A stretch of DNA of 47,038 nucleotides from Nitrospirota bacterium. Lineage in GTDB: Bacteria; Nitrospinota_A; UBA7883; JACRGQ01. The notes under the pieces are model-generated. The model was not told the DNA's origin. It ran no database searches and was given only the letters and a program-made list of their open reading frames with translations. The position numbers and the translations under genes are program-made. The stretch is taken from NCBI GenBank assembly GCA_024275955.1, contig JAJRYD010000035.1, positions 1-47,038 on the forward strand, given 5' to 3'. Shown here in pieces: positions 30,374 to 46,728 of this stretch (its first letter is position 1; each line of letters opens with the position of its first letter).

Positions 30374-30507
30374 TTGCACGCGCTTTCTTTGGGTTTAGCT
30401 CCTGGGGGCCGTATGACTTTAGTGTCGTATTCTTTTGCACTATCTCCCTCTACCAGCGTTCTTTATCCAGACTATTCACACAGCTGTTTTTCTATGAGGT
30501 GTCTGTT

Positions 30508-31305
30508 TTGACTGCCGGAACTTCAGCTTTAAAAGGAAACGAAGAGGTCTACCTCGTAGTTAGGACGAGGTCTATCTTCGCCTGTGCCATCCACTGGATA
30601 GTTTTCTGCTCTGTTATTGTGCTTGCGGTTACCGGCCTTTACATCGGCAACCCTACTTTCTATTTCGGAAAAGGAGAGCCGTACCAGGCTTTCGCCATGG
30701 CCGATATGCGCTTTTACCATTTTACCGCGGCGGCGGTTCTGATAGCTTCGTTTCTGACAAGGTTTTACCTAGCTTTTACAGATTCGTGCAACAAAGATAT
30801 AAAGCAATTTCTGCCGACCCCGCGCAATGTTATAAACGCGTTCAAGCTTGCTTTCAACTACGGGCTGGGCGGAGGAAAACACCTTGCCTACCGTTACGTC
30901 AACCCTTTGGGCGGTATCGGTATTTTTGGCATGATAGTTTTTATAACGATGCTTGCCGGCACAGGCCTTTTAATGTACGCACAGGGCGGGAACCCGAACA
31001 GTTTCTGGTATTCGCTTTGCTCTTCGCTAACTATTATGATCGGCGGAATCCAAAATGTAAGAGTTATCCACCACCTCTCGATGTACTTCCTTTTTTTTAC
31101 CGTAATAATCCATATCTATATGCAGATATGGAAAAACATAGTGTTCACGGAGTCCGACATTTCATCCATTATAGGCGGTTACAAAATATTCCCGTATAGA
31201 GACATAGGCCATTTTGCCGACTACTACGGGATACATCTTGACGATGCCCCTCCTTCCAGAGAGGAGATGGATAGGGCTTCGACACCGATGAAGGACGCAG
31301 AGTAA
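30508..31305 (+). CDS. hyaC: [NiFe]-hydrogenase b-type cytochrome subunit (first copy)
   Basis: A 265-residue inner-membrane dihaem cytochrome b that takes electrons from the hydrogenase small subunit to quinone. Four membrane segments are visible (about residues 24-44, 70-92, 138-158 and 185-205), with histidines in HWIVF, YHFTA, and the VIHHLSMY and VIIHIYMQ region as candidate haem ligands. I favour TTG 30508 because GAGG lies eight bases upstream; GTG 30499 is the alternative and adds three residues. It is the first gene of the operon, unusual because this subunit normally follows the large subunit, where a second copy is also found. Confidence 0.85.
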   Translation: MTAGTSALKGNEEVYLVVRTRSIFACAIHWIVFCSVIVLAVTGLYIGNPTFYFGKGEPYQAFAMADMRFYHFTAAAVLIASFLTRFYLAFTDSCNKDIKQFLPTPRNVINAFKLAFNYGLGGGKHLAYRYVNPLGGIGIFGMIVFITMLAGTGLLMYAQGGNPNSFWYSLCSSLTIMIGGIQNVRVIHHLSMYFLFFTVIIHIYMQIWKNIVFTESDISSIIGGYKIFPYRDIGHFADYYGIHLDDAPPSREEMDRASTPMKDAE

Positions 31306-31360
31306 TAATACAGCCCCTACACAGGGGACTGTGACTGCTTGGGATGCTAAAGGAGGTAAC

Positions 31361-32500
31361 ATGTGTGAAACAAGAAACAGGTTCGTAGGGCTTGAACCAA
31401 AAAAACGTGTCGAGGCGCTGGAAGATATAGACCGGCGCGACTTCATTCTCTTTTGCACTACCATAGCCGCCACGCTCGGCCTTGAAGCGTCGTGGGTGCC
31501 GAAGATAGCCGAAGCTGTGGAGAGAGCGGCAAGAAAACCTTCTGTCATCTGGATGCATTTTGCCGAATGCACCGGCGATTCCGAAGCATTCATAAGATCA
31601 AGCTACCCTTCCACCGAAGAACTGATACTGGATATTCTTTCGATTGACTACCACGAAACGCTTATGGCGGCCTCCGGCGAAGCGGCCGAAGAAGCTCTTC
31701 GGCTGGCAATGGAGGAAAACGACGGCAAATATATTGCCGTTTGCGAGGGAGCTATACCGATGGCAACCCCTCCCGGGCCGAACGGCAAGCCGGGCGACTA
31801 CCTTAGAGTAGGCGGTAAAACCGGAATAGAACTTGCCAGGGAAGTTTGCGGCCGAGCGGCCGCCGTAATGTGCGTAGGGAACTGCGCCTCTTTTGGAGGA
31901 GTGCAGGCGCAATACCCAAACCCTACAGGAGCGGTATCTATTTCTAAGGCAACAGGAGTTCCTACATTGAATATTTCCGGTTGTCCCCATAACGTTGTCA
32001 ATTCCGTCGCTACGATTATCAATTTTCTACTTCTTGGTTCGCTACCCAAGGCAGACAAGCTTGGACGGCCTCTTTTTGCTTACGGCAAAAGGATACACGA
32101 CACCTGCCCAAGAAGAGCGCACTTCGACGCTGGACAATTTGTCGAAGAGTTTGGAGATGAGGGTGCTAAGGACCAATGGTGCCTTTACAAAGTGGGGTGC
32201 AAAGGCCCACAGACATATCACAACTGCTCCAGCGTGGAATACAACGACGGTACCTCGTGGCCTATAAAAGGCGGCCACGGGTGCATAGGCTGTTCCGAAC
32301 CGCAGTTCTGGGACAACATGTCTCCGTTTTATGAACGGCTACCTAATATCAAACTGCCGGGAGTCGAGGCGACTGCCGACAAGGTAGGGCTTACCCTTGT
32401 AGGCGCGGCGGCGACAGGCGCGGCGGCACACGCCACCTATACTTTGCTTAACCGCAAGAAATTCGACGAAACCTTAAAAGACGACGAGGGGGAGGAGTAA
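31361..32500 (+). CDS. hyaA: Uptake [NiFe]-hydrogenase small subunit
   Basis: A 379-residue iron-sulfur subunit, exported by the Tat system together with the large subunit. The Tat motif is RRDF at residues 25-28 in a hydrophobic signal segment. Iron-sulfur ligands include CTGDSE, the CVGNCASFGG region, SGCPHN, and the C-terminal HDTCPRR, CLYKVGC and CIGCSEPQFWD motifs. A C-terminal helix (about residues 340-365) anchors it in the membrane facing the periplasm. ATG 31361 follows AAAGGAGGTAA, a strong ribosome-binding site; the frame is open further upstream but not coding. Confidence 0.96.
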   Translation: MCETRNRFVGLEPKKRVEALEDIDRRDFILFCTTIAATLGLEASWVPKIAEAVERAARKPSVIWMHFAECTGDSEAFIRSSYPSTEELILDILSIDYHETLMAASGEAAEEALRLAMEENDGKYIAVCEGAIPMATPPGPNGKPGDYLRVGGKTGIELAREVCGRAAAVMCVGNCASFGGVQAQYPNPTGAVSISKATGVPTLNISGCPHNVVNSVATIINFLLLGSLPKADKLGRPLFAYGKRIHDTCPRRAHFDAGQFVEEFGDEGAKDQWCLYKVGCKGPQTYHNCSSVEYNDGTSWPIKGGHGCIGCSEPQFWDNMSPFYERLPNIKLPGVEATADKVGLTLVGAAATGAAAHATYTLLNRKKFDETLKDDEGEE

Positions 32501-32503
32501 GCA

Positions 32504-34162
32504 ATGGGTGAAAGACATGTAATAGATCCGATAACCCGGATTGAAGGACACTTGAGAATAGAGATAGATGTTGAAGACGGCAAAGTGAAAGACGCGTGGA
32601 GCTCCGGCACGCTGTTTAGAGGTTTCGAGATATTTATGAAAGGACGCGACCCGAGAGACGCATGGATAATAACGCAGAGGGTTTGCGGTGTATGTACCAC
32701 CGTACATGCGCTTGCGTCGGTCAAGTGCGTTGAGAACGCCGTAGGAATACAGATACCGGAAAACGCGCGTCTCATCAGAAACCTTATCCTCGGCGCGCAG
32801 TATATACACGATCATATAGTTCATTTCTATCACCTGCACGCGCTTGACTGGGTAGATATTGTTTCCGCTTTGAGTGCCGACCCAAAGAAGACTTCGGAAC
32901 TTACAAACTCGATAAACCCAAACGCTCCAAAAAGCGGGCCGGGCGACTTTAAAAATGTTAAGGACAAGCTTAAAAAATTCGTCGACGCGGGACAACTTGG
33001 GCCGTTTACCAACGGGTATTGGGGGCATCCTGCGTATAAACTGCCGCCGGAAGCCAACCTTATGGCGGTATCGCATTATCTCGATGCTCTTTCTCTGCAA
33101 AGCCGTTTGGCGCGTATGCATGCGATATTCGGCGGAAAAAACCCGCACATACAAACCTACACCGTCGGCGGAGTAACCTGTGTTAACGACCTTAACCCAG
33201 ACAGAATAAGCGAGTTTATGTTCCTCCTCAAAGAGGGGCAAAATTTTATCGACAACGTTTACCTGCCAGATGTGCTTGCGATCGCTCCTTTCTACCTCGA
33301 CTGGGCCGGTATCGGCGGCGGGCTGGAAAACTACCTTACCTACGGGATGTTTCCCGGGCAGGGTGGAAAAGAGCCGGAATCTCTCTGGTTCCCCCGCGGC
33401 ATCGTAAAAGGCAGAGATATAACCAAAGTCCACCCCGTACAAGTAGAGAAAATTACCGAAGAGGTTACGCACTCGTGGTACAAGGGCGAAAAATCGCTTC
33501 ACCCAAGCGTTGGTGAGACCGACCCATGGTACACAGGTCTCGAAACCTCCAAACCGGAGGGCAAGTACTCGTGGCTTAAAACGCCGAGGTACGACGGCAT
33601 GGCGTGCGAGGTAGGCCCGCTTGCGAGAATGCTTGTCAACTATGTATCTGGCCACAAACCGACGGTAGATAATATCGGCTTCGTGCTTGGCAAGCTTGGT
33701 GCCGGACCGGAAGTTCTTTTCTCCACTCTTGGACGGATAGCGGCAAGAGCGGTAGAGACGAAGGTAATTGCCGACGAGATGGGCGGCTGGATAAACGAAC
33801 TGCTTGCTAACCTGAAGCGGGGCGATATGGAAACCTTTACACCGTTCGAGATGCCAAACAGTGCAAAAGGATTCGGCATGACCGAGGCGCCGCGCGGAGC
33901 GTTGGGACACTGGATAGAGATAGAGAAAAAGAAGATAAAAAACTACCAGATGATCGTTCCGACAACATGGAACGGTTCGCCGCGTGATGCTAAGGGGCAG
34001 ATGTCGGCGTTTGAGGCATCACTTATCGGCACCCCGATTGCCGACCCCAAGAAACCGCTTGAGGTGTTGAGGACGATTCATTCGTTCGACCCCTGCATAG
34101 CCTGCTCGGTTCATGTTCTGGATTCGGAAAAGGAAGAAACGTACGAGGTAAAGGCGGTTTAG
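32504..34162 (+). CDS. hyaB: Uptake [NiFe]-hydrogenase large subunit
   Basis: A 552-residue catalytic subunit. The two cysteine pairs that hold the Ni-Fe centre are RVCGVC (residues 59-64) and DPCIACSVH near the C-terminus. The protein continues 15 residues past the His, the peptide removed by the maturation protease. It lies three bases after the small subunit with GGAGG before the start. A long antisense frame over this gene is a shadow. Confidence 0.97.
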   Translation: MGERHVIDPITRIEGHLRIEIDVEDGKVKDAWSSGTLFRGFEIFMKGRDPRDAWIITQRVCGVCTTVHALASVKCVENAVGIQIPENARLIRNLILGAQYIHDHIVHFYHLHALDWVDIVSALSADPKKTSELTNSINPNAPKSGPGDFKNVKDKLKKFVDAGQLGPFTNGYWGHPAYKLPPEANLMAVSHYLDALSLQSRLARMHAIFGGKNPHIQTYTVGGVTCVNDLNPDRISEFMFLLKEGQNFIDNVYLPDVLAIAPFYLDWAGIGGGLENYLTYGMFPGQGGKEPESLWFPRGIVKGRDITKVHPVQVEKITEEVTHSWYKGEKSLHPSVGETDPWYTGLETSKPEGKYSWLKTPRYDGMACEVGPLARMLVNYVSGHKPTVDNIGFVLGKLGAGPEVLFSTLGRIAARAVETKVIADEMGGWINELLANLKRGDMETFTPFEMPNSAKGFGMTEAPRGALGHWIEIEKKKIKNYQMIVPTTWNGSPRDAKGQMSAFEASLIGTPIADPKKPLEVLRTIHSFDPCIACSVHVLDSEKEETYEVKAV

Positions 34163-34166
34163 GAAA

Positions 34167-34859
34167 ATGACGCAAAAACTTATATCGCCGCAAAAGAAGG
34201 TGCTGGTCTATACCAGAAACTTTACCAACAGGCTTATACACTGGCTCACCTTTTTTTCGGTGATTACGCTCCTGATAACCGGCTACTACATAGGCGAACC
34301 TACAGCGGTGTATGGTAAAGGCGAGCCGTATAAAACTTTCGTAATGGCCGACATACGGCTTATCCATTTTTATGCCGCTATGGTGCTGGACATAACCCTG
34401 CTCGTCTGGCTGTACCTTGCCTTTATGAGCCTGCACAACAAGTACTGGAAGCTTTTATTCCCAAGCATTAACACGGTAAAGGGAGCGTGGGAAATATTTA
34501 AATGCTACTTCACCTTTAAAAAACCCCGCTTTTACGAGCATTTCGACCCTTTGGACGGGCTAATATTTCTTGTGCTGATAGTTCTCATGGCGTTACAACT
34601 GCTTACAGGCTTCCAGCTTTTTGTCGTGGCCCTCCCTGATAATTACTGGTTTGCAAAGTTAATACATTTGAGTACCGACTGGATATCATCGCTACTCGGC
34701 GGTTCGCAGAACGTAAGGCTTGTCCACCGCATAGTCGAATGGATACTTATCGCCGGGGTTATAGTCCATGTCTATCTGCAGATAGCCAAGACCGTCATAT
34801 GGCAAGACGGCCATATAGGCCAGATGGTCGGCGGCTACAAGTACAGAGATGTTAAGTAG
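34167..34859 (+). CDS. [NiFe]-hydrogenase b-type cytochrome subunit (second copy)
   Basis: A 230-residue paralogue of the cytochrome at 30508. Both share GYYIGEPT/GLYIGNPT, YGKGEPY, MADIRLIHF/MADMRFYHF and the closing GQMVGGYK/SSIIGGYK motif. It is four bases after the large subunit, the usual position for hyaC. The two copies flank the catalytic subunits, so the enzyme may use two membrane partners, or one may be specific for a different quinone or condition. Confidence 0.9.
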   Translation: MTQKLISPQKKVLVYTRNFTNRLIHWLTFFSVITLLITGYYIGEPTAVYGKGEPYKTFVMADIRLIHFYAAMVLDITLLVWLYLAFMSLHNKYWKLLFPSINTVKGAWEIFKCYFTFKKPRFYEHFDPLDGLIFLVLIVLMALQLLTGFQLFVVALPDNYWFAKLIHLSTDWISSLLGGSQNVRLVHRIVEWILIAGVIVHVYLQIAKTVIWQDGHIGQMVGGYKYRDVK

Positions 34860-34919
34860 GATAAAAATATTCCGCCGTTTCAAAATTTTTTCTGCTTGAG
34901 CTGAAAATAGGAGAAACTG

Positions 34920-35414
34920 ATGTCTGAAATTCCTAAAATAATCGTACTCGGTATCGGCAACATACTAATGTCTGACGAGGGTGTCGGCGTAAGGGCGCTT
35001 GAGAGGTTAAAAGAAAAGTATTCCTTCCCCGAAAATGTAGAGATGCATGACGGAGGTACGACAGGCTTGCATGGTTTGCTTCCTTTGGTAGAAGAGGCAG
35101 ACCACCTAGTCGTTATAGATGCCGTAAATGGTGAAGGAGAGGCCGGCACGCTGTATCGGTACACCTCTGATGATTTCAAAAAGATTTTCCCTAAAAAACT
35201 TTCCGCTCACGAGATAGGTTTTATGGAATGCCTCACAGTGGCGGAACTAAACGGACGCTTACCAAAAAGCGTAATTATTATCGGAATTAAACCAGAAGAT
35301 ATGCAAACCCCAAACATAGGCCTTACCTCGACAATAAAGCTTAAAGTAGATGAACTTGCAGAAGCGGCGGCAAAAGAAATTGAATCACTCGGTGTGCATC
35401 ATCAAAAGCTATAA
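34920..35414 (+). CDS. hyaD: Hydrogenase maturation endopeptidase
   Basis: A 164-residue protease that cuts the C-terminal peptide of the large subunit after nickel insertion. Motifs GIGNILMSDEGVGV (residues 11-24, Glu20 a likely nickel-sensing ligand), VVIDAVNG and SAHEIGF (His ligand) match the HybD/HyaD family. It has TAGGAGA before the ATG and closes the operon. Confidence 0.95.
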   Translation: MSEIPKIIVLGIGNILMSDEGVGVRALERLKEKYSFPENVEMHDGGTTGLHGLLPLVEEADHLVVIDAVNGEGEAGTLYRYTSDDFKKIFPKKLSAHEIGFMECLTVAELNGRLPKSVIIIGIKPEDMQTPNIGLTSTIKLKVDELAEAAAKEIESLGVHHQKL

Positions 35415-36163: not shown

Positions 36164-36976
36164 ATGGGATTTGACAACGCACATATTGAAAGTTTGACTA
36201 AAGACAACCTTAAAAACGATGCTACCTTCCTAAGAGATAACCCGGGCCCAATTACCGTGATGGCTACCGAAATGCGCTTCATTTTTGGAGACTGTAGCTC
36301 GACTCTAAAAATTTATCATTCTCTTGTCAATTTTTGCGTCATGGTCAACAACGGAACGGCAGTTAAGAAAAGTAAAAATAAGACTCTATCTTCATTCGAT
36401 AATCCAGCGAATGCTGTTGAGGCTGGGGTTCTCTTGCAAGAGAAAATTGATGCCTATAACATGAAAAAAAACAGTTCTGAAGAGATAATGGCAGCTAAGG
36501 TAAAAATAGGAAGTGGAGCCTTCCATGAAAACCTTAAAGCCGCCCCGAATATATCAATAAATGAGACTCCTGCTCCCGACTCTTTAGTATCGTTTGGGGA
36601 GATATTTATTTCGGAGGATGCCTATCATGCCGTTAAGGCTCGCGGCAGGTTTGATTTCCGCCTCGAAAAAGAGATAAAGATTTCTGAAAAAAAGGCGCCG
36701 ATGAAATTATTTAAAGTGCTTTTTGACCCACATGAAATTGGAGCTCACAAAAAACAGATGACTGAACAAAATAAAGCTCTGAAAAAAGCAGGAACCGAGA
36801 ATCGATACAAGTTTTTGATTACCACAGTAGCCATTCCCGTTTTGCTTGTCGTAATTGTTACCATTATAAGCTGGTACAGCAGAAACCCTACAAGCCTTTA
36901 CAAAAAATATTCAATCACGCATTCTGTCGATTACAAGGCCGAAGGAAGTAACCAGAGGCTTAAAAATGGAAAGTAA
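36164..36976 (+). CDS. Degenerate nucleotide-cyclase-like domain protein with C-terminal membrane helix
   Basis: A 270-residue protein whose residues about 29-187 follow the class III adenylate/guanylate cyclase pattern: a first strand ITVMATEMRF, then LSSFDNPANAVEAGVLLQEK (usual 'F.dp..Av.Aa..mq'), KVKIGSGAFHEN (usual 'rIGihtG') and GEIFISEDAYHAVK. The metal-binding aspartates and the GD.VN.AARL motif are missing, so catalysis is unlikely and a binding or regulatory role is inferred. One membrane helix lies at 216-238. GGAGG precedes the ATG. It lies 35 bp upstream of bcsG, suggesting a role in controlling cellulose modification. Confidence 0.65.
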   Translation: MGFDNAHIESLTKDNLKNDATFLRDNPGPITVMATEMRFIFGDCSSTLKIYHSLVNFCVMVNNGTAVKKSKNKTLSSFDNPANAVEAGVLLQEKIDAYNMKKNSSEEIMAAKVKIGSGAFHENLKAAPNISINETPAPDSLVSFGEIFISEDAYHAVKARGRFDFRLEKEIKISEKKAPMKLFKVLFDPHEIGAHKKQMTEQNKALKKAGTENRYKFLITTVAIPVLLVVIVTIISWYSRNPTSLYKKYSITHSVDYKAEGSNQRLKNGK

Positions 36977-37011: not shown

Positions 37012-38532
37012 ATGGGAATTTGGGGCTTTTATTTTTTTGTTAAAATCTTTCTTAACCTGAAAAATGTAATCACTCTTAATCTTTCGGCAAACATCCTTTT
37101 TGCTTTTTTTCTGATAATTCCGCTTCCTGAAAAGAAAAGGTTTAGCGAGGCAATTCGAAAGGTCAAAGGCGTTGCCAATCTTGTTCTTGGGTTTTCACTT
37201 TTATGGCATGATTCATATTTCCCATCGCCATATGACATTTACGAAACATTCAAACATAATGGGCTTCCATCAACCGAATACATCTATACATTTTTGATAG
37301 GCTACTACAGCCAAGATATCATTTTTATAGGCGCGGCGGCATTAATAGCCTGTATGTTTCTAGCCCATTATATCAAGATAATGAATGTAGCGATTCTTTT
37401 CCTACTTTTGCTAATTCCCTACAACGTCTCGGGGCAGATAAGCAAAAAGAGCCTTGATGAGCATGTAGAAGAGTTCTTTGACGATGAAGAGATAAAATCT
37501 GTCTCTTTCAGCTACAATAGCTCAGAGCCTCCTGATTTTGACATTATTTTTCTCCATATATGTTCTCTCTCATGGGACGACCTCTACTATGTAGGGCTTG
37601 ATCAGCATCCGATTTTCAAGGAGTTCAACTATCTATTTGAAAACTTCAACAGCGTCACTGCATATAGCGGCCCTGCCATGATAAGGCTGATGAATGCCGC
37701 CTGCGGACAGAAAGCCCATACCGACCTCTACAGCCCATCCCTAAAACAATGCCATATTTTTCAAGAGTTATCCAAAGTGGGATTTGATATCTCCATTGCT
37801 CTTAACCATAACGGAAGATATGGTCAATTTTCCAATCAAATAATCGAATTTGGGCATGTTGACTCAAAGCCGATGAGCCTTGATAGCCTTGAAAGTAAGA
37901 TGCTGATGTTCGACAACTCCCCTGTCTATGACGACTTTGAAGTACTCAATAGCTGGCTTTCAAATAGAATGAAGAACACGCATGAACAATCTGTCTTTTA
38001 TTATAACTCAGTCTCCCTCCATGATGGTGTCCATGCTGTTAATGAGAAAGTTTTGGCTGATGATACTAAAACTATCTACACCAGCCATCTAAAGAAGCTT
38101 CTAGACGAGATGAGAAAATTTATACAGGCCCTTGAAGATTCGGGCAGAAAATTTATTGTTGTTTTTATTCCTGAGCATGGCATGTCGATAAAGGGAAGTA
38201 AGATACAAAAATCAACTCTTAGGGATATTCCTCTTCCTGATATTACAAGAGTTCCGGTTGGCATCAAACTTATAGGGGGAAAGTATAAAAGTGCCAAATT
38301 CAAACAACATAAAATATCAAAACCTACCAGTTACCTCGCTATTGCCCATATGCTAAGCATGTTTATAGAGAAATCTCCCTTTGCCAGCGAGCAGTACTCC
38401 TCAAGAAAATTTATTGACAGCATCCCGATTTCCGATTTTGTGGCAGAAAACGATAGTGGTATTGCTACCAGATATGATGGGAAGTACTTTTTTAAAGTGA
38501 AGGGTAAAAACTGGGTAGAATTGAAAAACTAG
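37012..38532 (+). CDS. bcsG: Cellulose phosphoethanolamine transferase BcsG
   Basis: A 506-residue inner-membrane enzyme that transfers phosphoethanolamine from phospholipid to cellulose in the periplasm. The N-terminus has about four membrane segments (residues 1-140). The periplasmic alkaline-phosphatase-fold domain has ICSLSWDDL (Cys184), TAYSGPAMIRL with the likely nucleophile Ser219, AACGQ, SPVYDD, LHDG and PEHG, matching E. coli BcsG closely. The ribosome-binding site is weak (AAGAAGCGG). bcsE and bcsF, its partners in E. coli, are absent from the window. Confidence 0.92.
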   Translation: MGIWGFYFFVKIFLNLKNVITLNLSANILFAFFLIIPLPEKKRFSEAIRKVKGVANLVLGFSLLWHDSYFPSPYDIYETFKHNGLPSTEYIYTFLIGYYSQDIIFIGAAALIACMFLAHYIKIMNVAILFLLLLIPYNVSGQISKKSLDEHVEEFFDDEEIKSVSFSYNSSEPPDFDIIFLHICSLSWDDLYYVGLDQHPIFKEFNYLFENFNSVTAYSGPAMIRLMNAACGQKAHTDLYSPSLKQCHIFQELSKVGFDISIALNHNGRYGQFSNQIIEFGHVDSKPMSLDSLESKMLMFDNSPVYDDFEVLNSWLSNRMKNTHEQSVFYYNSVSLHDGVHAVNEKVLADDTKTIYTSHLKKLLDEMRKFIQALEDSGRKFIVVFIPEHGMSIKGSKIQKSTLRDIPLPDITRVPVGIKLIGGKYKSAKFKQHKISKPTSYLAIAHMLSMFIEKSPFASEQYSSRKFIDSIPISDFVAENDSGIATRYDGKYFFKVKGKNWVELKN

Positions 38533-38720: not shown

Positions 38721-40196
38721 ATGCGGGAGAAACTAAAAATAACCGATAAAATAGCGCGGACTAAAAAAGCCTTTTTGCACTTCGCTTGCCGTATGAAACG
38801 CTTACGGCTGAAAACAGCTTTTCCACTTTCCATCGCCAGATCTTTTTTTCCCATTCTTTTTCCCATTTTACTTACTCCGTTGTATGCATCAGCTAAAGAT
38901 TTTCCTATCGCTTACCCTGGTTACAGCTGGGGAAAGCTTATCCACGACAATGATAAAGTAGGCGGTAACGGCGGGCAGTGGAATATTGTGCAGGGAGTGG
39001 ACTGGTACAAGTTTTCGGGGGATATCGTGCTGAACACCTATGGGGCTTTCAACCATCGCTCAAGAGAAAACAACACCCGCTACTACAACTCGGAGGGGCC
39101 GGCGGTAGGTGTCGAGCTTGTTAAAGGCCCTGTCTCGCTAGGTTACGAATACTATAAGGAAAGGCTTCCAAAACTTCAGGAGACCTCTCATAACCGAGCT
39201 TACTACTTCAAAGGCTATTTGGATTGGGAACATATAATGCTCTCTAATGAAACAAAATTTCCAGGTTCTCTCTGGTTCCAGACAACTCACGATGTAAGCG
39301 GCATCAACGGTTCCGGAATCCAGTTTTCTCTTAATCAAGGAATTAATCTGTACAGATTCCCCAAGGATATTGACCTGAATGCTTATGTTGAATACAACTA
39401 TCGCTCAAGGGACAAAAACCAGAAATATTACGACGCCAATGGCCCCGCGGTTGGGATAGAAGTTAGATATTCTTCTTTTCGTGCCGGTATTGATTATTTT
39501 TGGGAGAGCCTGCCTCCCTTGAATGAAAGTTCCTATCGGTTTCAAATCTATCTTAGCTGGTTTGTAACTTGGGATTTGAAAAACTACTTCAAATCCAAAC
39601 CTGAAAGGAGAGAAGTGGTTGAAATTACTGGCACCGACATTTTTATAGTGGAAGAAAAAAAACCGCTGATAAATCCCAAAATTGAAGATGAGCTGATTGC
39701 AGGAGATCTCGATAAGCCAACCATCAGTAGCTCGGAGAAGGCGGCGAAAACAGAGAATGCCACTGCCATCTCCGAAGAGCCAGCAAATGCCGGTAAAAGT
39801 AGCATCTCTATAGAGGCAGGCGCCTCCTTCGACGATCCTGAAAAAGATATTCGAAAAGCGATAGAAGGCTGGCTAACGGCATGGAGCTCAGAGGATATTG
39901 ATGCGTATGCCGGTTTCTATTCTTCAGACTTTCTCTCGGCAAAAGGCCTTAATAAGGATGAACATATTAAAGATAAAAGAGGCGCGTTTGCCAAGCCACA
40001 CTCCCCCCATGTAGCAATAAGCAACCTTGCTATCGCAATAAAAGGCGACATCATTGATGTGGTATTTATGCAGAGTTCAGAGCCGAACTCTTCTCAGCAG
40101 ATAGGATGGAAGAGGCTTGTTTGGAGCAAGTATGGTGATGAATGGAAAATACTGTATGAGAGAGATAGCGCGAATAAATTATTATTAACTTTTTAA
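38721..40196 (+). CDS. Exported beta-rich protein with repeated module and C-terminal NTF2-like domain
   Basis: A 491-residue protein of unknown function. A signal peptide ends near residue 58 (YASA-KD). Two homologous beta-rich modules follow, at about 85-152 and 198-268. Each has alternating strands, an NHRSR/NYRSR turn, a YY..GPAVGVE/YY..GPAVGIE core and a final LGYEYYKERLPKL/AGIDYFWESLPPL strand, resembling outer-membrane barrel strands. A charged linker (296-372) leads to an NTF2-like domain (373-484) with AIEGWLTAWSSEDIDAYAGF, VVFMQ and GWKRLVW. That domain is clearly homologous to one inserted in BcsB next door. ATG 38721 has an AAGAG site; ATG 38793 would give a shorter signal peptide. 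It converges on bcsZ with a 13-bp gap. I infer an outer-membrane component of cellulose export in place of BcsC. Confidence 0.75.
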   Translation: MREKLKITDKIARTKKAFLHFACRMKRLRLKTAFPLSIARSFFPILFPILLTPLYASAKDFPIAYPGYSWGKLIHDNDKVGGNGGQWNIVQGVDWYKFSGDIVLNTYGAFNHRSRENNTRYYNSEGPAVGVELVKGPVSLGYEYYKERLPKLQETSHNRAYYFKGYLDWEHIMLSNETKFPGSLWFQTTHDVSGINGSGIQFSLNQGINLYRFPKDIDLNAYVEYNYRSRDKNQKYYDANGPAVGIEVRYSSFRAGIDYFWESLPPLNESSYRFQIYLSWFVTWDLKNYFKSKPERREVVEITGTDIFIVEEKKPLINPKIEDELIAGDLDKPTISSSEKAAKTENATAISEEPANAGKSSISIEAGASFDDPEKDIRKAIEGWLTAWSSEDIDAYAGFYSSDFLSAKGLNKDEHIKDKRGAFAKPHSPHVAISNLAIAIKGDIIDVVFMQSSEPNSSQQIGWKRLVWSKYGDEWKILYERDSANKLLLTF

Positions 40197-40209
40197 GTGG
40201 TGCTTCAAA

Positions 40210-41244
40210 CTAATAAAATGCATCTTCAGTTATCGACAGGAGATAAAGGCTGAAAGAGTAGTAGCTTTTCTCATCCTGCTCAAGCCGTTTTTTGGCCTCC
40301 TTGAACAGTTTCTCGCTTAAACTTTCTCTGCCAAGTTTTTTTGCCGCCAGACCAAAGACGGCGTAGAACCCAGGCGAACCATGAGCCAGAGAAACGGAGT
40401 TCCTGTCGAGGTCAACCCAATCCGGGATATACCCAAGCTTATCGTAATGGTTAAGTATTTTATGCACTCCGGGCGGCAAAGCGGAAGGTTCGCTGATAGC
40501 CAGGTTCATTACTACTCTTATGGCGTTGCTGTAAAAAAGAGTCGATTTACTTTCGAAAATCTTTATTTCCGATCCGGTGAGCTTAAGCCATTCCGGCGGT
40601 AGTTCATAATCGCTGAAAGAGCTTTTTCCAAGAATTTGCAGGCTATCTTTATAGACCTTTTCCCAAAACTTGCGGTCATCGTAGACCGCGAACTTTCTGT
40701 ACGCTTCAAACAAAAAGTAGGATGGGTTCATGATAATCGAATCCTCATGCGCATGCCCATAATAACTTGCCAAAAGAAGAGTTTTACCGTTCCATTCAAT
40801 TGGAAGGTTAACCCTTATGCTTCCAATGATTTTTTTACCTTCTTCTAGGTAGCTTTTTTGCTTCCATTTTTCGAAAGCCTTTAGAAGCGCCAGTGATATC
40901 AGAAGGTCTCCGTCAGTCGCATTATTAAAGTCGATAACTCCCCATGAGCCGTTGGCCCGTTTCCCCCATAACCACGGAATGAGAGAATCCTCCCTTTTGT
41001 GCATATTGTTATAAAGCCATTGGTGCATCTTTTTAAAGCTTGCCTTGTCGTTATAGGCAACTGCGAGAAGCATCCCATAGCCCATGCTTTCCGAATGCGA
41101 AGAGCTGTTTTGATAATAGTCGACGACTCTCCCCTCTTTGGTAATAAACTGCTCCTTGTACTTTTCCCACAGCGTTTTGGCTTCCAGCGGCTGAGGCAAA
41201 AATAATCCAACAATAAAAATCAGAGAGACTATCGGCTTAATCAT
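40210..41244 (-). CDS. bcsZ: Periplasmic endo-1,4-beta-glucanase BcsZ (GH8)
   Basis: A 344-residue cellulase that trims nascent cellulose during export. Residues 1-22 are a signal peptide (LEA-K). The GH8 general acid is Glu52 in SHSESMGYGM, and NATDGDLLI (Asp111, Asp113) supplies the catalytic-site acids. I place the start at ATG 41244, with GAGG nine bases upstream inside the bcsB end; longer starts at 41286 and 41262 put charged residues ahead of the signal peptide. It is the last gene of bcsA-B-Z. Confidence 0.92.
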   Translation of the reverse strand: MIKPIVSLIFIVGLFLPQPLEAKTLWEKYKEQFITKEGRVVDYYQNSSSHSESMGYGMLLAVAYNDKASFKKMHQWLYNNMHKREDSLIPWLWGKRANGSWGVIDFNNATDGDLLISLALLKAFEKWKQKSYLEEGKKIIGSIRVNLPIEWNGKTLLLASYYGHAHEDSIIMNPSYFLFEAYRKFAVYDDRKFWEKVYKDSLQILGKSSFSDYELPPEWLKLTGSEIKIFESKSTLFYSNAIRVVMNLAISEPSALPPGVHKILNHYDKLGYIPDWVDLDRNSVSLAHGSPGFYAVFGLAAKKLGRESLSEKLFKEAKKRLEQDEKSYYSFSLYLLSITEDAFY

Positions 41245-41245
41245 T

Positions 41246-44062
41246 TTATTTTTCCTCGTCATCTTTTTGTGGTAGCTTTCTCGCAATAAAGAAGAAGAGC
41301 AACGCCTTTTTTAAAACTGCAAAAACTCCAAGAACTGACCGCCCGACTTCCGGATCTTCCTCACTAGCCTTGCGTACCAAGATATTTCTGTACATCATTA
41401 TGGTCGACATTATCAACATTACCAACAGAATACCGCCGACGATGTAGAGAGCATTTGGGTGCGTATAAAAATAGAGCGCGCCCTTCTGCAAGATGCTATT
41501 GGCTCCAATGTAGTAGGCTTTCTCCGTTGTCAAGCTACTTACCTCGTATCCGGGTTTGTTAAAATCGACGATAACAAAATCCTTTTTCCCTTTTTCCTGC
41601 ACTCCGGCATCGGTCATCGCCAATCCTAGTTTGGCGAGGTCTTCCTCTGTTTCGGCAGAAAACAGAATGGCGGTTTTGTTGTTGCCGTATGGCGATTTAA
41701 ATTCCAGAATCAAGCCTCTGTTTGCTCCGATATCCGATATCTGCCGGATCTGCGCGAAGGTTTCGCCCATCGGGTTTTTAGAAAAAGGGTAAGGAACCTT
41801 GGTTATATTCTTAAGGCTTAATTCCGAATTGCCGGCAACTTCATCCATTAAGGAAGCGATCGTTCCGAACACCATAATATTGCCGTTCCATTTGTCCGGC
41901 ATATTTTTTCTTACATTAATTGAAAAAAGGGGAAAGCCATTATTCTGGGAGATCATCCCTACCGTATTCATCGCGGCTTCCAAAGCCGGGTTGTCTTTAT
42001 CGGAGAGAACTATAAGTGTGTTTGATCCATCAGGCCATACCGTGAAAGGGTATCCATTAAGCATAAAAAGGGCAATGTTCGGCATTTTAACAAAATGCGG
42101 CATTTTGGGAAAAGAGAGTTCGGAATTATCGTGTATGGTCAAAACAAGGCTTTCCGGGAGTACAAGCTGGCATTCTTCGCTATCGGGAATCATCACAGGT
42201 TTAAAGCTAACCTTATTCTTACCCGGCTTGAAGAGATAGGTAGGTATCGATATTTCATAATCTTCAAGTGTCGCGCCTTTAGGATTGTCAAATGATATTG
42301 TTGTTGCAAAAACCCCGTTTAGCAGAATATTAAGGCCCGAATCAGCTCTGAGACCTCCAGAGTAAACAAAATTCAGGCTTAGTTTCGCGTATTGGTTCGG
42401 CTTAATATCAAAATCAGGCGGAAGGTTGAATGACAAATCTTTTGGAGCAGGCAATAACCCAATGAAAGTTTTTGTATGGAAGCCGAGCTTTTGAAATTTT
42501 GTAGGTTTTCCGGTCTCAAGTACCGCTTTGCCGGAATAGGTTTTTATATCGTTTACCTTGAACTCAAGGACTTCCATTTCGCTCACGCCCGGGTAAGGAA
42601 AGGTAAGGGATATTAATGCTTCGGTCGCAAGTTTTATATCATCCTCACTCTTTCCTGATAGAATTATCAGTGCGTGGGTGGGATCATCATCATGCACGAG
42701 CTTTTTAAGTTTCTTTGCGGGAAGCTTCTCGACAACTTTTTCTTCGAGCTGTACAGGAGGCTTTTCGCGGCTCCATTTTTCCGACAAAATCTTTAATTCA
42801 CTTCCTTCCTTTACCCAAACAAGCTCCTTCCATCCATCGTGTTTAAATCTCTCCCACTTTTTCCCAACAAGCGATGCCAAGCGATACTTCTGCATAAAAA
42901 CAGCTTGAGTCTTCTTCCCCTGAGGAACAATAGAAATATCGCTTATTGTTATTATCGGCATCCCAATTTTATTAAAAAGATCTTTCTTCTTTTGGATATA
43001 GCTTTTTTGCTTTTCCCCCTGCTCTGAAATAAATCTTAAGGAATAAAAACCGGCATATGATTTAATCTCCTCGTTAGTCCATGAATCAAGCCATTTGTCA
43101 ATTGCTTCTCTGGCTTCAGATTTCTGGATATTACTCTTTGCCTCCTCTTTATCTTCTTCCACTGAATGGCCCTCAGATATCGGAAAAGTATTGATAATAT
43201 CTGTAGATTCTATTTTACCAAGCGGCAGTTTGGCTATTTTTATTGAAGGCCCGGAGATATCCGTTGGAATATTCGCCGGCAGGATATTTCTTATATCATC
43301 ACCCACACCAATCATAATATTATCCACTCCGGGTTTTATCTTATCCGATACTGAAAAAGTTACCGGAACATAATCAAACCTTTTTGCAATGCCGGAAGCC
43401 AGCACTGTAGCTGTGGTAAGCATCGTGTCGGAGGCATCAGCATGACCACCTGGAATGACAATGTTAATGTTCCCCCTTTCGAATGTTTTATTGTCAAACA
43501 GAAAGTTGTGCGCTTTTGATAGAACCAGAGGAACAGGGAGTGGATCGTAATCAATTTCTATATATGCGTTGTGGAAATCAATATCTGTCCAAAGGTTAGG
43601 GTCGCAAGGATGTTCGCACTCAAAGGAGAAGTGTTGTCCTACAAAGAAGCTTATTTCGTTATACTTATGTCCAAGAAGTTTTTGCGGTATTTCAAATAAA
43701 ACAGATTGCTCCGGTTCTTCCAGCCCCAGAACCTGTGTCCAGACAGGTTTGCTGTTTACTCTGACCGCGATCATTGAGCCTTCAGGAATGAGGGTGGGAG
43801 AGCTTACAAACCTGAAGTTTATAGTCGCTTTATTAATCTTCCATCTTTCCGGTATCGGCAGATAGATACTAAAGGTGCTTTTGTTGCACCTCATGTGGGC
43901 AATTTTTTTTCCTAAGAATTTTTCAAGCGGCATACGCACAATTTCGGCATTAACAGCTGAAGCAGTCGATAGAAGGAGGCCGAAGAGCAGGAAAAGTAAT
44001 CTGCTGACTACAGGGATGGATGAACCTCTGTCAAAACCCGGGCTTTCAGATAAGATGTTCAC
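41246..44062 (-). CDS. bcsB: Cellulose synthase periplasmic subunit BcsB with inserted NTF2-like domain
   Basis: A 938-residue subunit, about 160 longer than E. coli BcsB. A signal peptide (residues 18-39) is followed by carbohydrate-binding and flavodoxin-like repeats, and a C-terminal membrane anchor lies near 884-905 (YIVGGILLVMLIMSTIMM). Residues about 283-460 interrupt the first flavodoxin-like domain between GPSIKIAKLP and THALIILSGKS, segments that are adjacent in ordinary BcsB. The insert holds an NTF2-like domain (about 317-432: AIDKWLDSWTNEEIKSYAGF, AVFMQ, GWKELVW) homologous to that of the exported protein at 38721. The start is GTG, overlapping the bcsA stop (GTGA), so the two are translationally coupled. 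Confidence 0.92.
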   Translation of the reverse strand: MNILSESPGFDRGSSIPVVSRLLFLLFGLLLSTASAVNAEIVRMPLEKFLGKKIAHMRCNKSTFSIYLPIPERWKINKATINFRFVSSPTLIPEGSMIAVRVNSKPVWTQVLGLEEPEQSVLFEIPQKLLGHKYNEISFFVGQHFSFECEHPCDPNLWTDIDFHNAYIEIDYDPLPVPLVLSKAHNFLFDNKTFERGNINIVIPGGHADASDTMLTTATVLASGIAKRFDYVPVTFSVSDKIKPGVDNIMIGVGDDIRNILPANIPTDISGPSIKIAKLPLGKIESTDIINTFPISEGHSVEEDKEEAKSNIQKSEAREAIDKWLDSWTNEEIKSYAGFYSLRFISEQGEKQKSYIQKKKDLFNKIGMPIITISDISIVPQGKKTQAVFMQKYRLASLVGKKWERFKHDGWKELVWVKEGSELKILSEKWSREKPPVQLEEKVVEKLPAKKLKKLVHDDDPTHALIILSGKSEDDIKLATEALISLTFPYPGVSEMEVLEFKVNDIKTYSGKAVLETGKPTKFQKLGFHTKTFIGLLPAPKDLSFNLPPDFDIKPNQYAKLSLNFVYSGGLRADSGLNILLNGVFATTISFDNPKGATLEDYEISIPTYLFKPGKNKVSFKPVMIPDSEECQLVLPESLVLTIHDNSELSFPKMPHFVKMPNIALFMLNGYPFTVWPDGSNTLIVLSDKDNPALEAAMNTVGMISQNNGFPLFSINVRKNMPDKWNGNIMVFGTIASLMDEVAGNSELSLKNITKVPYPFSKNPMGETFAQIRQISDIGANRGLILEFKSPYGNNKTAILFSAETEEDLAKLGLAMTDAGVQEKGKKDFVIVDFNKPGYEVSSLTTEKAYYIGANSILQKGALYFYTHPNALYIVGGILLVMLIMSTIMMYRNILVRKASEEDPEVGRSVLGVFAVLKKALLFFFIARKLPQKDDEEK

Positions 44063-46311
44063 TTTGCCTCTTCAAACTTCCTTTTTAAGAAGACTTTTGC
44101 GAACTTAGCCTGCCGCTTTACAAAAGAAGTTATAAGTTCAACTATTCCTTTAAATCCAGCTCTAAAAAGATGCATCAGAAGCATCGAAGTGCCGGTAAAA
44201 TTAGATTTTTGATCCCATATAGACGCCCATCTTTGACTGCTTCCATAAACAAAGGCGACAATACTATCGAAATCTTCTTCAATATTATTATACTCAACAC
44301 CGCAGAACAGAGTTCCATCACTTCCTTTTGACGCTACTCTCTGAAGAGTTCCTTCAAAGTAGAATTTTTCTCCGGACTTCTTGTAAAGTATCTCTAAAAT
44401 TACTTTCCCTTTGGGCTTTGGCTTATCCTGAAATTTGCCTATGAAACTTAGACCGTGCAAGGAAATATCCTGAATCTTGCACTCTACTGTTTCCGATGTC
44501 TCGGGGATTGTGACCATTACTTCCCCTGAAGTATTTATTCTGTGGTAGCTTCTAACCTGCTTTCTCTCCCAGAACGCTCCTATCGAGATGGTAACCATAA
44601 CTATGTTGTAGGCGCACCATATTGATGTAAAGAAGAGTACATCCCTGTAAAGCGGTAACGATACCCATTTGACCATACCAAAATAAATCGCGGTAAGATT
44701 AATCCCAATGATAATAAGAAATGCCGATGCCAACGGGTTGAGACTCTCTTTTTCTATGGTACTCCCTTTTGGAGTAACCTTGAACATCGGTTTCCTTGGA
44801 TTTATAATCACCGAAATTATCGCGGGAAGAAGGAACAGTGCCTGTACACTTTCATAGATTTCAGAAAAAATCGGCTCTCTTGCTTTCCCAAAATAGAATT
44901 CCATCACCAGCATAGTGCTAAAAAGGTACGGTAGAGCATAAACTACTATTTGCGACATCGACGCATTGTAGACCATCAGGCCAAATATGAGAAAAAGGCT
45001 AGGGGCGATATAAAACATAAACCTTGAAAGACCGAAAAACCAGAAAAAGCTCGAACTAAAATAGCATACCCTTTGAGCGAATGTCAGGCCTTTCATTGTC
45101 AATATATTCCTGAGAAGGAATATCTGCATCATCCCTTGGGCCCATCTGGTTCTTTGAATTATGTAATCGTCTAATGTTTCAGGGGAAAGACCGCATACCA
45201 TCGGGTAATTAACATATACGCTATTGTAGCCCATGGCATGCAGAGAAAGAGATGTCTCTGCATCTTCGGTTATGGTATCCCCGGATATTCCTCCATTTTT
45301 ATCAAGATATTTCCTGCGTAAAACGGCGGCGGAACCGCAAAAATAACTTCCGTTCCAAAAGTCAAGGCCGGTATGGATTACACGAAAAAACATATCATTT
45401 TCAACGGACATTTTGGAACCGTAATCAACACTTTTTTCAACAGGAGTCTGGTTTATAAAAAAGTGAGGGGTCTGTGCCAGAAAAAGCTTTTCGTCCGCCA
45501 AAAAGTAACCAACGGTATTGGTCAGAATATCCCTTGTCGGTACATGGTCGCAATCAAGTACCAGCACAAGGTCGCCATTAGTATGAATCAGGGCATTATT
45601 GATATTCCCAGCTTTGGCTTTGCTGTTATCATCCCTGGTTATATACTCAACCCCAAGCTTTTTTGCCAATTTCCTGAACTTGTAATATCGCTCCCACGCA
45701 TCTTTTGATGTTTTTGGGTTGTTCCTCCTTGCCACGGTACCGCCATCGTCGATTATGTAGATATTAAACTTATCAGGAGGGTATTCAATATTCTTTGCGG
45801 CGGAGCATGTAACACGGACTATATTCTCTGCTTCAGAATATGTTGGAATCAGTACATCCACCGTCGGTAGCGACTTTTCGGACCAGTTGCCAAGCCGATA
45901 ACCTCTTCGGTTAATAGGCCATATGTTTATGAACATGCTTAAAAGGTGTAGCGTAATGCCGTGTACCTCAGCTAGGTATAAAGCTCCCATTGCGGTAAAA
46001 TTCACTACCCCTGTGTATGACAAAGTTTCAAAAGTTCTCCAGTAGAGATACCTCAGCGCAAGGAATGCCGCGATCATCATAAAAATTACACGCCACGGAG
46101 CCTTCCTGAAAAATTTTATTTTTAATGCCAAAAAAAGAATGGCAAAAGCACCCCAGTAAATCAATAGTTTATCTGGAAAAGATAAAGTCCTGTCAAATGA
46201 ATAGACAATATAAGCAAGAATTGTGACTATCAAAAATAAAAGGAACTTAATAGCAGTAAAAAAAGTTGTCGAGAAAGCCGATTCATTATAAATTCCAATT
46301 AAATTTGGCAT
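44059..46311 (-). CDS. bcsA: Cellulose synthase catalytic subunit BcsA
   Basis: A 750-residue inner-membrane processive GT2 enzyme polymerising UDP-glucose. Catalytic motifs are DDGG (188-191), DCD (253-255), TED (348-350) and QRTRW (386-390). About eight membrane segments flank the glycosyltransferase domain. The C-terminal PilZ domain carries the c-di-GMP motif RxxxR (Arg587/Arg591) and DISLHG (Asp615, Ser617, Gly620), so activation by c-di-GMP is expected. Residues after about 700 form a basic helix. It is first in the bcsA-B-Z operon. A TGTAACG-N8-CGTTACA repeat lies 91 bp upstream. Confidence 0.97.
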   Translation of the reverse strand: MPNLIGIYNESAFSTTFFTAIKFLLFLIVTILAYIVYSFDRTLSFPDKLLIYWGAFAILFLALKIKFFRKAPWRVIFMMIAAFLALRYLYWRTFETLSYTGVVNFTAMGALYLAEVHGITLHLLSMFINIWPINRRGYRLGNWSEKSLPTVDVLIPTYSEAENIVRVTCSAAKNIEYPPDKFNIYIIDDGGTVARRNNPKTSKDAWERYYKFRKLAKKLGVEYITRDDNSKAKAGNINNALIHTNGDLVLVLDCDHVPTRDILTNTVGYFLADEKLFLAQTPHFFINQTPVEKSVDYGSKMSVENDMFFRVIHTGLDFWNGSYFCGSAAVLRRKYLDKNGGISGDTITEDAETSLSLHAMGYNSVYVNYPMVCGLSPETLDDYIIQRTRWAQGMMQIFLLRNILTMKGLTFAQRVCYFSSSFFWFFGLSRFMFYIAPSLFLIFGLMVYNASMSQIVVYALPYLFSTMLVMEFYFGKAREPIFSEIYESVQALFLLPAIISVIINPRKPMFKVTPKGSTIEKESLNPLASAFLIIIGINLTAIYFGMVKWVSLPLYRDVLFFTSIWCAYNIVMVTISIGAFWERKQVRSYHRINTSGEVMVTIPETSETVECKIQDISLHGLSFIGKFQDKPKPKGKVILEILYKKSGEKFYFEGTLQRVASKGSDGTLFCGVEYNNIEEDFDSIVAFVYGSSQRWASIWDQKSNFTGTSMLLMHLFRAGFKGIVELITSFVKRQAKFAKVFLKRKFEEAK

Positions 46312-46653: not shown

Positions 46654-46728
<75 letters not shown>

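Follow-up and report, generated by a model that had tools for sequence, protein, structure and literature searches.

The bcs locus described here encodes a BcsG-type cellulose system in which BcsC appears to be replaced by a small exported protein made of two tandem repeats and free of tetratricopeptide repeats (TPR). The locus carries the same NTF2-like domain (Cds6_C, PF24125) twice, once inserted into BcsB and once at the C-terminus of the exported protein. We give about an even chance to a reading in which the exported protein has taken the place of BcsC and the two Cds6_C modules hold the synthase and the pore at the cell wall.

Organization of the locus

The window analysed is an entire 47-kb contig of a 2.45-Mb assembly that is 98.4% complete. 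At one contig end, bcsA, bcsB and bcsZ lie on the minus strand, convergent with a cyclase-like gene, bcsG and the gene of the exported protein on the plus strand.

36164..36976, plus strand: gene kept in several bcs loci, whose homologue in genome G005 is class III nucleotide cyclase-like (PF00211, E=1e-22)
37012..38532, plus strand: bcsG, phosphoethanolamine transferase, upstream of the exported-protein gene (PF11658, E=2e-134; TIGR03368 above cut-off)
38721..40196, plus strand: exported protein, 491 aa, with signal peptide, two-repeat segment, linker of about 80 aa and NTF2-like domain
40210..41286, minus strand: bcsZ, GH8 endoglucanase (PF01270, E=8e-55)
41246..44062, minus strand: bcsB, 938 aa, with signal peptide, two PF03170 pieces and C-terminal membrane anchor (PF03170, E=1e-96; NCBIfam BcsB models)
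44059..46311, minus strand: bcsA, cellulose synthase (UDP-forming) carrying a PilZ domain (TIGR03030, 780 bits and above cut-off; PilZ match)

The original prediction noted that BcsC is missing from this locus. Its absence extends to the genome, since no match to the BcsC barrel domain BCSC_C (PF05420) was recovered anywhere in the assembly, even at E<=10. The gene at 36164-36976 adjoins bcsG and, unlike its homologue in G005, has no Pfam match in the window copy; given this loss, the window copy may be a degenerate form with a regulatory role. Close to the contig end, immediately upstream of bcsA, there is a tRNA gene (Rfam tRNA; window 46657-46728, minus strand).

An NTF2-like domain is inserted into BcsB

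The PF03170 match of BcsB is split into two pieces with Cds6_C between them, both halves of the family being covered. In an alignment of the window BcsB with ten BcsBs from related genomes and with the E. coli protein, about 175 extra residues (~281-459) fall between E. coli BcsB residues 307 and 309, within the first flavodoxin-like domain, as had been proposed from the sequence of this locus. The Cds6_C insertion is missing from the ten relatives' BcsBs and from the E. coli protein. Its GC content is 38%, versus 43% in the remainder of bcsB.

42707..43222, minus strand: insertion within the first flavodoxin-like domain of BcsB (residues ~281-452), comprising linkers and the NTF2-like domain (alignment)
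42776..43108, minus strand: Cds6_C (PF24125, NTF2-like) of BcsB, residues 319-429 (53.8 bits, cut-off 27)

The NTF2-like nature attributed to the insert was supported by a Cds6_C score of about twice the cut-off and by a search of the PDB with a profile built from this genome's four Cds6_C copies and one from a relative, which matched Bd1075 (7o21, E=2e-18), Csd6 (4xzz, 5e-9) and Pgp2 (6xj6, 2e-7). The open-access literature yielded no report of such a domain in BcsB, in line with the original prediction, which knew of no described Bcs system with this insertion.

The BcsB of G011 (L055 7649-10231) carries an unrelated insertion of ~120 residues in the same loop, which suggests that this loop is an insertion-tolerant site. 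Another variant, the BcsB of G007 (L063 7828-10791), has an N-terminal extension with a DUF4124 and a fibronectin type III domain, and fn3 or kelch/fn3 proteins adjoin bcs genes in G008, G009 and G010. At the BcsB columns that contact TPR#1 in E. coli, no clear difference was seen between BcsBs of the BcsC type and those accompanied by the repeat protein.

The exported protein contains two tandem repeats and ends in the same domain

With translation from Met25 (window 38793), the probable start of the exported protein, the signal peptide has a normal form. Its conserved part corresponds to ~235 residues, formed by two repeats of about 106 residues each.

38913..39230, plus strand: repeat 1, residues 65-170 (38% identity to repeat 2, E=1e-30)
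39258..39575, plus strand: repeat 2, residues 180-285 (relatives' proteins mostly end just past it)
39849..40163, plus strand: Cds6_C at the C-terminus, residues 377-481 (56.2 bits, cut-off 27)

Repeat proteins of this type begin with a signal peptide, are nearly devoid of Cys and contain 14-20% aromatic residues. The two-repeat segment matched no Pfam family and no PDB sequence, no named family was found for it, and Pfam searches detected no TPR in the exported protein. Profile comparison of the segment with BCSC_C and NfrA gave nothing either (hhalign probability of 0.1% against BCSC_C). An AF2 single-sequence model of the segment reached a pLDDT of 33, too low for use, and a strand-amphipathicity scan gave 7%, barely above the 5% obtained in shuffles. 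Folded as a barrel, ~235 residues would perhaps provide 10-12 strands, making it narrower than the 16-stranded barrel of BcsC.

The match between the C-terminal domain of this protein and the BcsB insert, on which the original prediction was built, is real: the two domains are 40% identical and find each other with E=2.4e-19 in a single-sequence search, so their likeness is not due to chance.

The repeat protein accompanies BcsB where BcsC is absent

The occurrence of these proteins was surveyed in 23 genomes of the class, 13 of which encode BcsB. The repeat protein was present in all 10 genomes with BcsB and without BcsC, in none of the 3 genomes with BcsC and in none of the 10 genomes without BcsB (Fisher p=0.0035 and 0.0004, values uncorrected for the kinship of these related genomes). 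The three BCSC_C genomes belong to one genus and share a bcsABZC operon with a TPR match. Both arrangements, with BcsC or with the repeat protein, occur inside a single family (f4). The mutual exclusion with BcsC is clean, and among candidates for a TPR-free substitute for BcsC the repeat protein ranks first.

Homologues of the repeat segment were found in nine other genomes, all without the NTF2 tail. In seven of the nine, the gene lies in the bcs locus, beside bcsG or bcsA; in G011 it neighbours bcsG at a distance from bcsABZ, and G007 has it on a different contig, so that the protein accompanies Bcs even where it is unlinked. Outside the phylum, no repeat protein was found in about 360 sampled genomes; single-protein scans of genome contigs yielded no relatives, and a scan of viral contigs was likewise empty.

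BcsG follows the same pattern as the repeat protein in the class. Because it covaries equally well, occurrence alone cannot separate a role in export from one in phosphoethanolamine (pEtN) modification. The BcsC of the genus that includes G016 (L064 11408-13168) is short (587 aa) with a single TPR_19 match, yet has a full BCSC_C; genomes of this genus are without BcsG.

The pair of NTF2-like domains, on BcsB and on the repeat protein, was found only in this genome. The nine relatives' BcsC-less systems have no Cds6_C on the repeat protein or on those BcsBs that could be read. The survey of co-occurrence thus upholds the original prediction as regards the exported protein, which in the class is found with BcsB wherever bcsC is absent (10/10), but not as regards the inserted BcsB, confined to this genome.

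The Cds6_C pocket is intact in both copies

The NTF2 domain of Campylobacter Pgp2 binds peptidoglycan, and mutants of its pocket lose the cell-shape function; K307A abolishes pull-down by the sacculus, and by NMR the binding of peptidoglycan fragments was located in the pocket (PMC8038945). Both Bcs copies share with Pgp2 the two helix tryptophans, W221 and W225, as well as Y233, Y237, F242, K257, K307 and E324, and thus keep every pocket residue that was mutated in Pgp2 (Y233, F242, K257, K307, E324), at an overall identity to Pgp2 of 21-27%. This conservation tracks membership in the family and is no proof of the ligand. A model of the domain built from the two sequences had a low-confidence pLDDT of 56 with the helices-then-sheet order of NTF2, and its top Foldseek match was again Bd1075 (7o21, E=0.016).

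Cds6_C also occurs outside the bcs locus: the genome encodes two further proteins with this domain. Across the class, the usual carrier is an AMIN-Cds6_C protein, present in most genomes and often with a lipoprotein-like N-terminus. A FimV_N-Cds6_C-SPOR protein (G000:C6:77309-77623; L068 8827-10767) is an unusual wall-associated carrier. Both AMIN and SPOR are wall-associated domains. Phylogenetically, the copies on BcsB and on the exported protein form a sister pair (91/75), which groups with the AMIN-Cds6_C protein of this genome (91/87); support is moderate. On the simplest account, the AMIN-Cds6_C protein was the source of the module, which was then copied between bcsB and its partner.

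What the two domains and the repeat protein may do

Both Bcs copies of Cds6_C are probably wall anchors, and not partners that hold on to one another or to cellulose; this reading rests on the preserved pocket, on the other carriers being AMIN and FimV/SPOR proteins, and on known structures that are not dimerised through the domain. The original prediction had instead proposed that the two domains either bind each other across the periplasm or both hold the glucan, forming an export path unlike BcsB-BcsC. NTF2 folds in general often dimerise, and here the tree places the two copies closest to each other, both should be periplasmic, and both were gained in the same genome. Direct pairing, which would dock the pore on BcsB, nevertheless seems unlikely: it is without precedent in Cds6_C, Bd1075 of Bdellovibrio being monomeric, with a domain that directs this enzyme to a single side wall (PMC8938487), and Csd6 dimerising via a separate N-terminal helix pair and not via the NTF2-like domain (PMC8938487, PMC8038945). 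The two other genomic copies, borne by unrelated proteins, would moreover compete, and the feature that is conserved is the pocket residues. A relay of nascent (pEtN-)cellulose from BcsB to the pore, with the chain held by both domains, would suit a pocket rich in aromatic and charged residues, able to accommodate a glycan or the pEtN amine, and domains carried by proteins of the cellulose pathway. We consider it improbable, since the family's known ligand is peptidoglycan and the residues that bind its fragments (PMC8038945) are those intact in both copies, most other genomic contexts of the domain are wall-associated, and relatives' systems exist without it. Pairing and relay both have less support than wall anchoring.

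Two other explanations were considered. The repeat protein could be accessory to BcsG or to the pEtN-modified product, with cellulose leaving through another outer-membrane channel; across the class, its covariation with BcsG is as perfect as that with the absence of BcsC, and its gene often adjoins bcsG. The E. coli BcsG system functions without a repeat protein, though, the loci showed no other candidate channel, no NfrA_C barrel scored above cut-off in the class, and within family f4 the repeat protein takes the place of BcsC in occurrence. This accessory role thus appears rather unlikely, if a little less so than direct pairing. Chance shuffling, in which a mobile Cds6_C segment landed in a BcsB loop and in a tail that are both permissive and changed little, is in keeping with the insert tolerated at this site in G011. 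It has, like the relay, little probability, as the same domain is found twice, in two partners at one locus, with both pockets intact.

A model for export without BcsC

In the model that we favour, the repeat protein would most likely be an outer-membrane barrel serving as the exit pore for cellulose. In OmpA-like proteins the C-terminal tail is in the periplasm; if the repeat protein is a barrel, its own tail would likewise point into the periplasm. In the lineage of this genome, a Cds6_C module would have been added to that tail and to the BcsB loop, each module gripping the wall from its own side so that its opposite faces are reached. Synthase and pore would then be held at the same wall sites, and their alignment restored without direct contact. 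Such anchoring would take over the job of the long TPR solenoid of BcsC in E. coli. The full proposal, that a TPR-free two-repeat pore replaces BcsC across the class and that in one lineage peptidoglycan replaces the TPR bridge through matched modules clamping BcsB and the pore, is put forward tentatively, as somewhat less probable than not.

Since the double gain of the domain is restricted to one genome, it is not essential to this mode of export, and the relatives' BcsC-less systems indicate that the route works without it. The idea of BcsC-independent export thus survives in part: an exported protein tied to Bcs across the class, replacing BcsC, is retained, and the NTF2 pair as the bridge itself is abandoned.

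Comparison with known systems

Type II Bcs of E. coli has bcsA, bcsB, bcsZ and bcsG in common with the present locus, and has BcsC where the repeat protein is found here. BcsC consists of a TPR solenoid and a 16-stranded barrel, roughly 1150 residues in total, compared with ~235 for the conserved part of the repeat protein; the solenoid spans the periplasm and docks on BcsB (PMC11379886), and its TPRs have been described as peptidoglycan-binding scaffolding (PMC7439463). Like BcsC, the repeat protein is exported and is associated with bcsA, bcsB, bcsZ and bcsG; unlike BcsC, it has no TPR and no homology to BCSC_C, and is made of two tandem repeats.

Cellulose operons without BcsC are as such already known. 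Type III Bcs lacks both BcsC and BcsG and often has the periplasmic scaffold BcsK (PMC11470070), and alphaproteobacterial operons without BcsC have been described (PMC7112194). The present locus shares the absence of BcsC with both and differs from Type III in having BcsG and in using a non-TPR exported protein. The Pgp2, Csd6 and Bd1075 domains belong to the same family by profile, with the mutated pocket residues all present in the Bcs copies, but are carried by L,D-carboxypeptidases; here the carriers are a cellulose synthase subunit and an exported Bcs-linked protein.

The repeat protein offers a concrete, small candidate for how a glucan crosses the periplasm and the outer membrane without BcsC. 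The acquisition of the same, probably wall-binding module by both ends of the route is a natural experiment, through which the part played by the cell wall in positioning a secretion machine can be tested directly. If the model is true, it would extend Cds6_C from wall-trimming enzymes to polysaccharide secretion.

Elsewhere in the window, the sequences at 30499-35414 read as a NiFe hydrogenase cluster, in which two similar cytochrome b-like genes flank those of the small and large subunits and are followed by a maturation protease.
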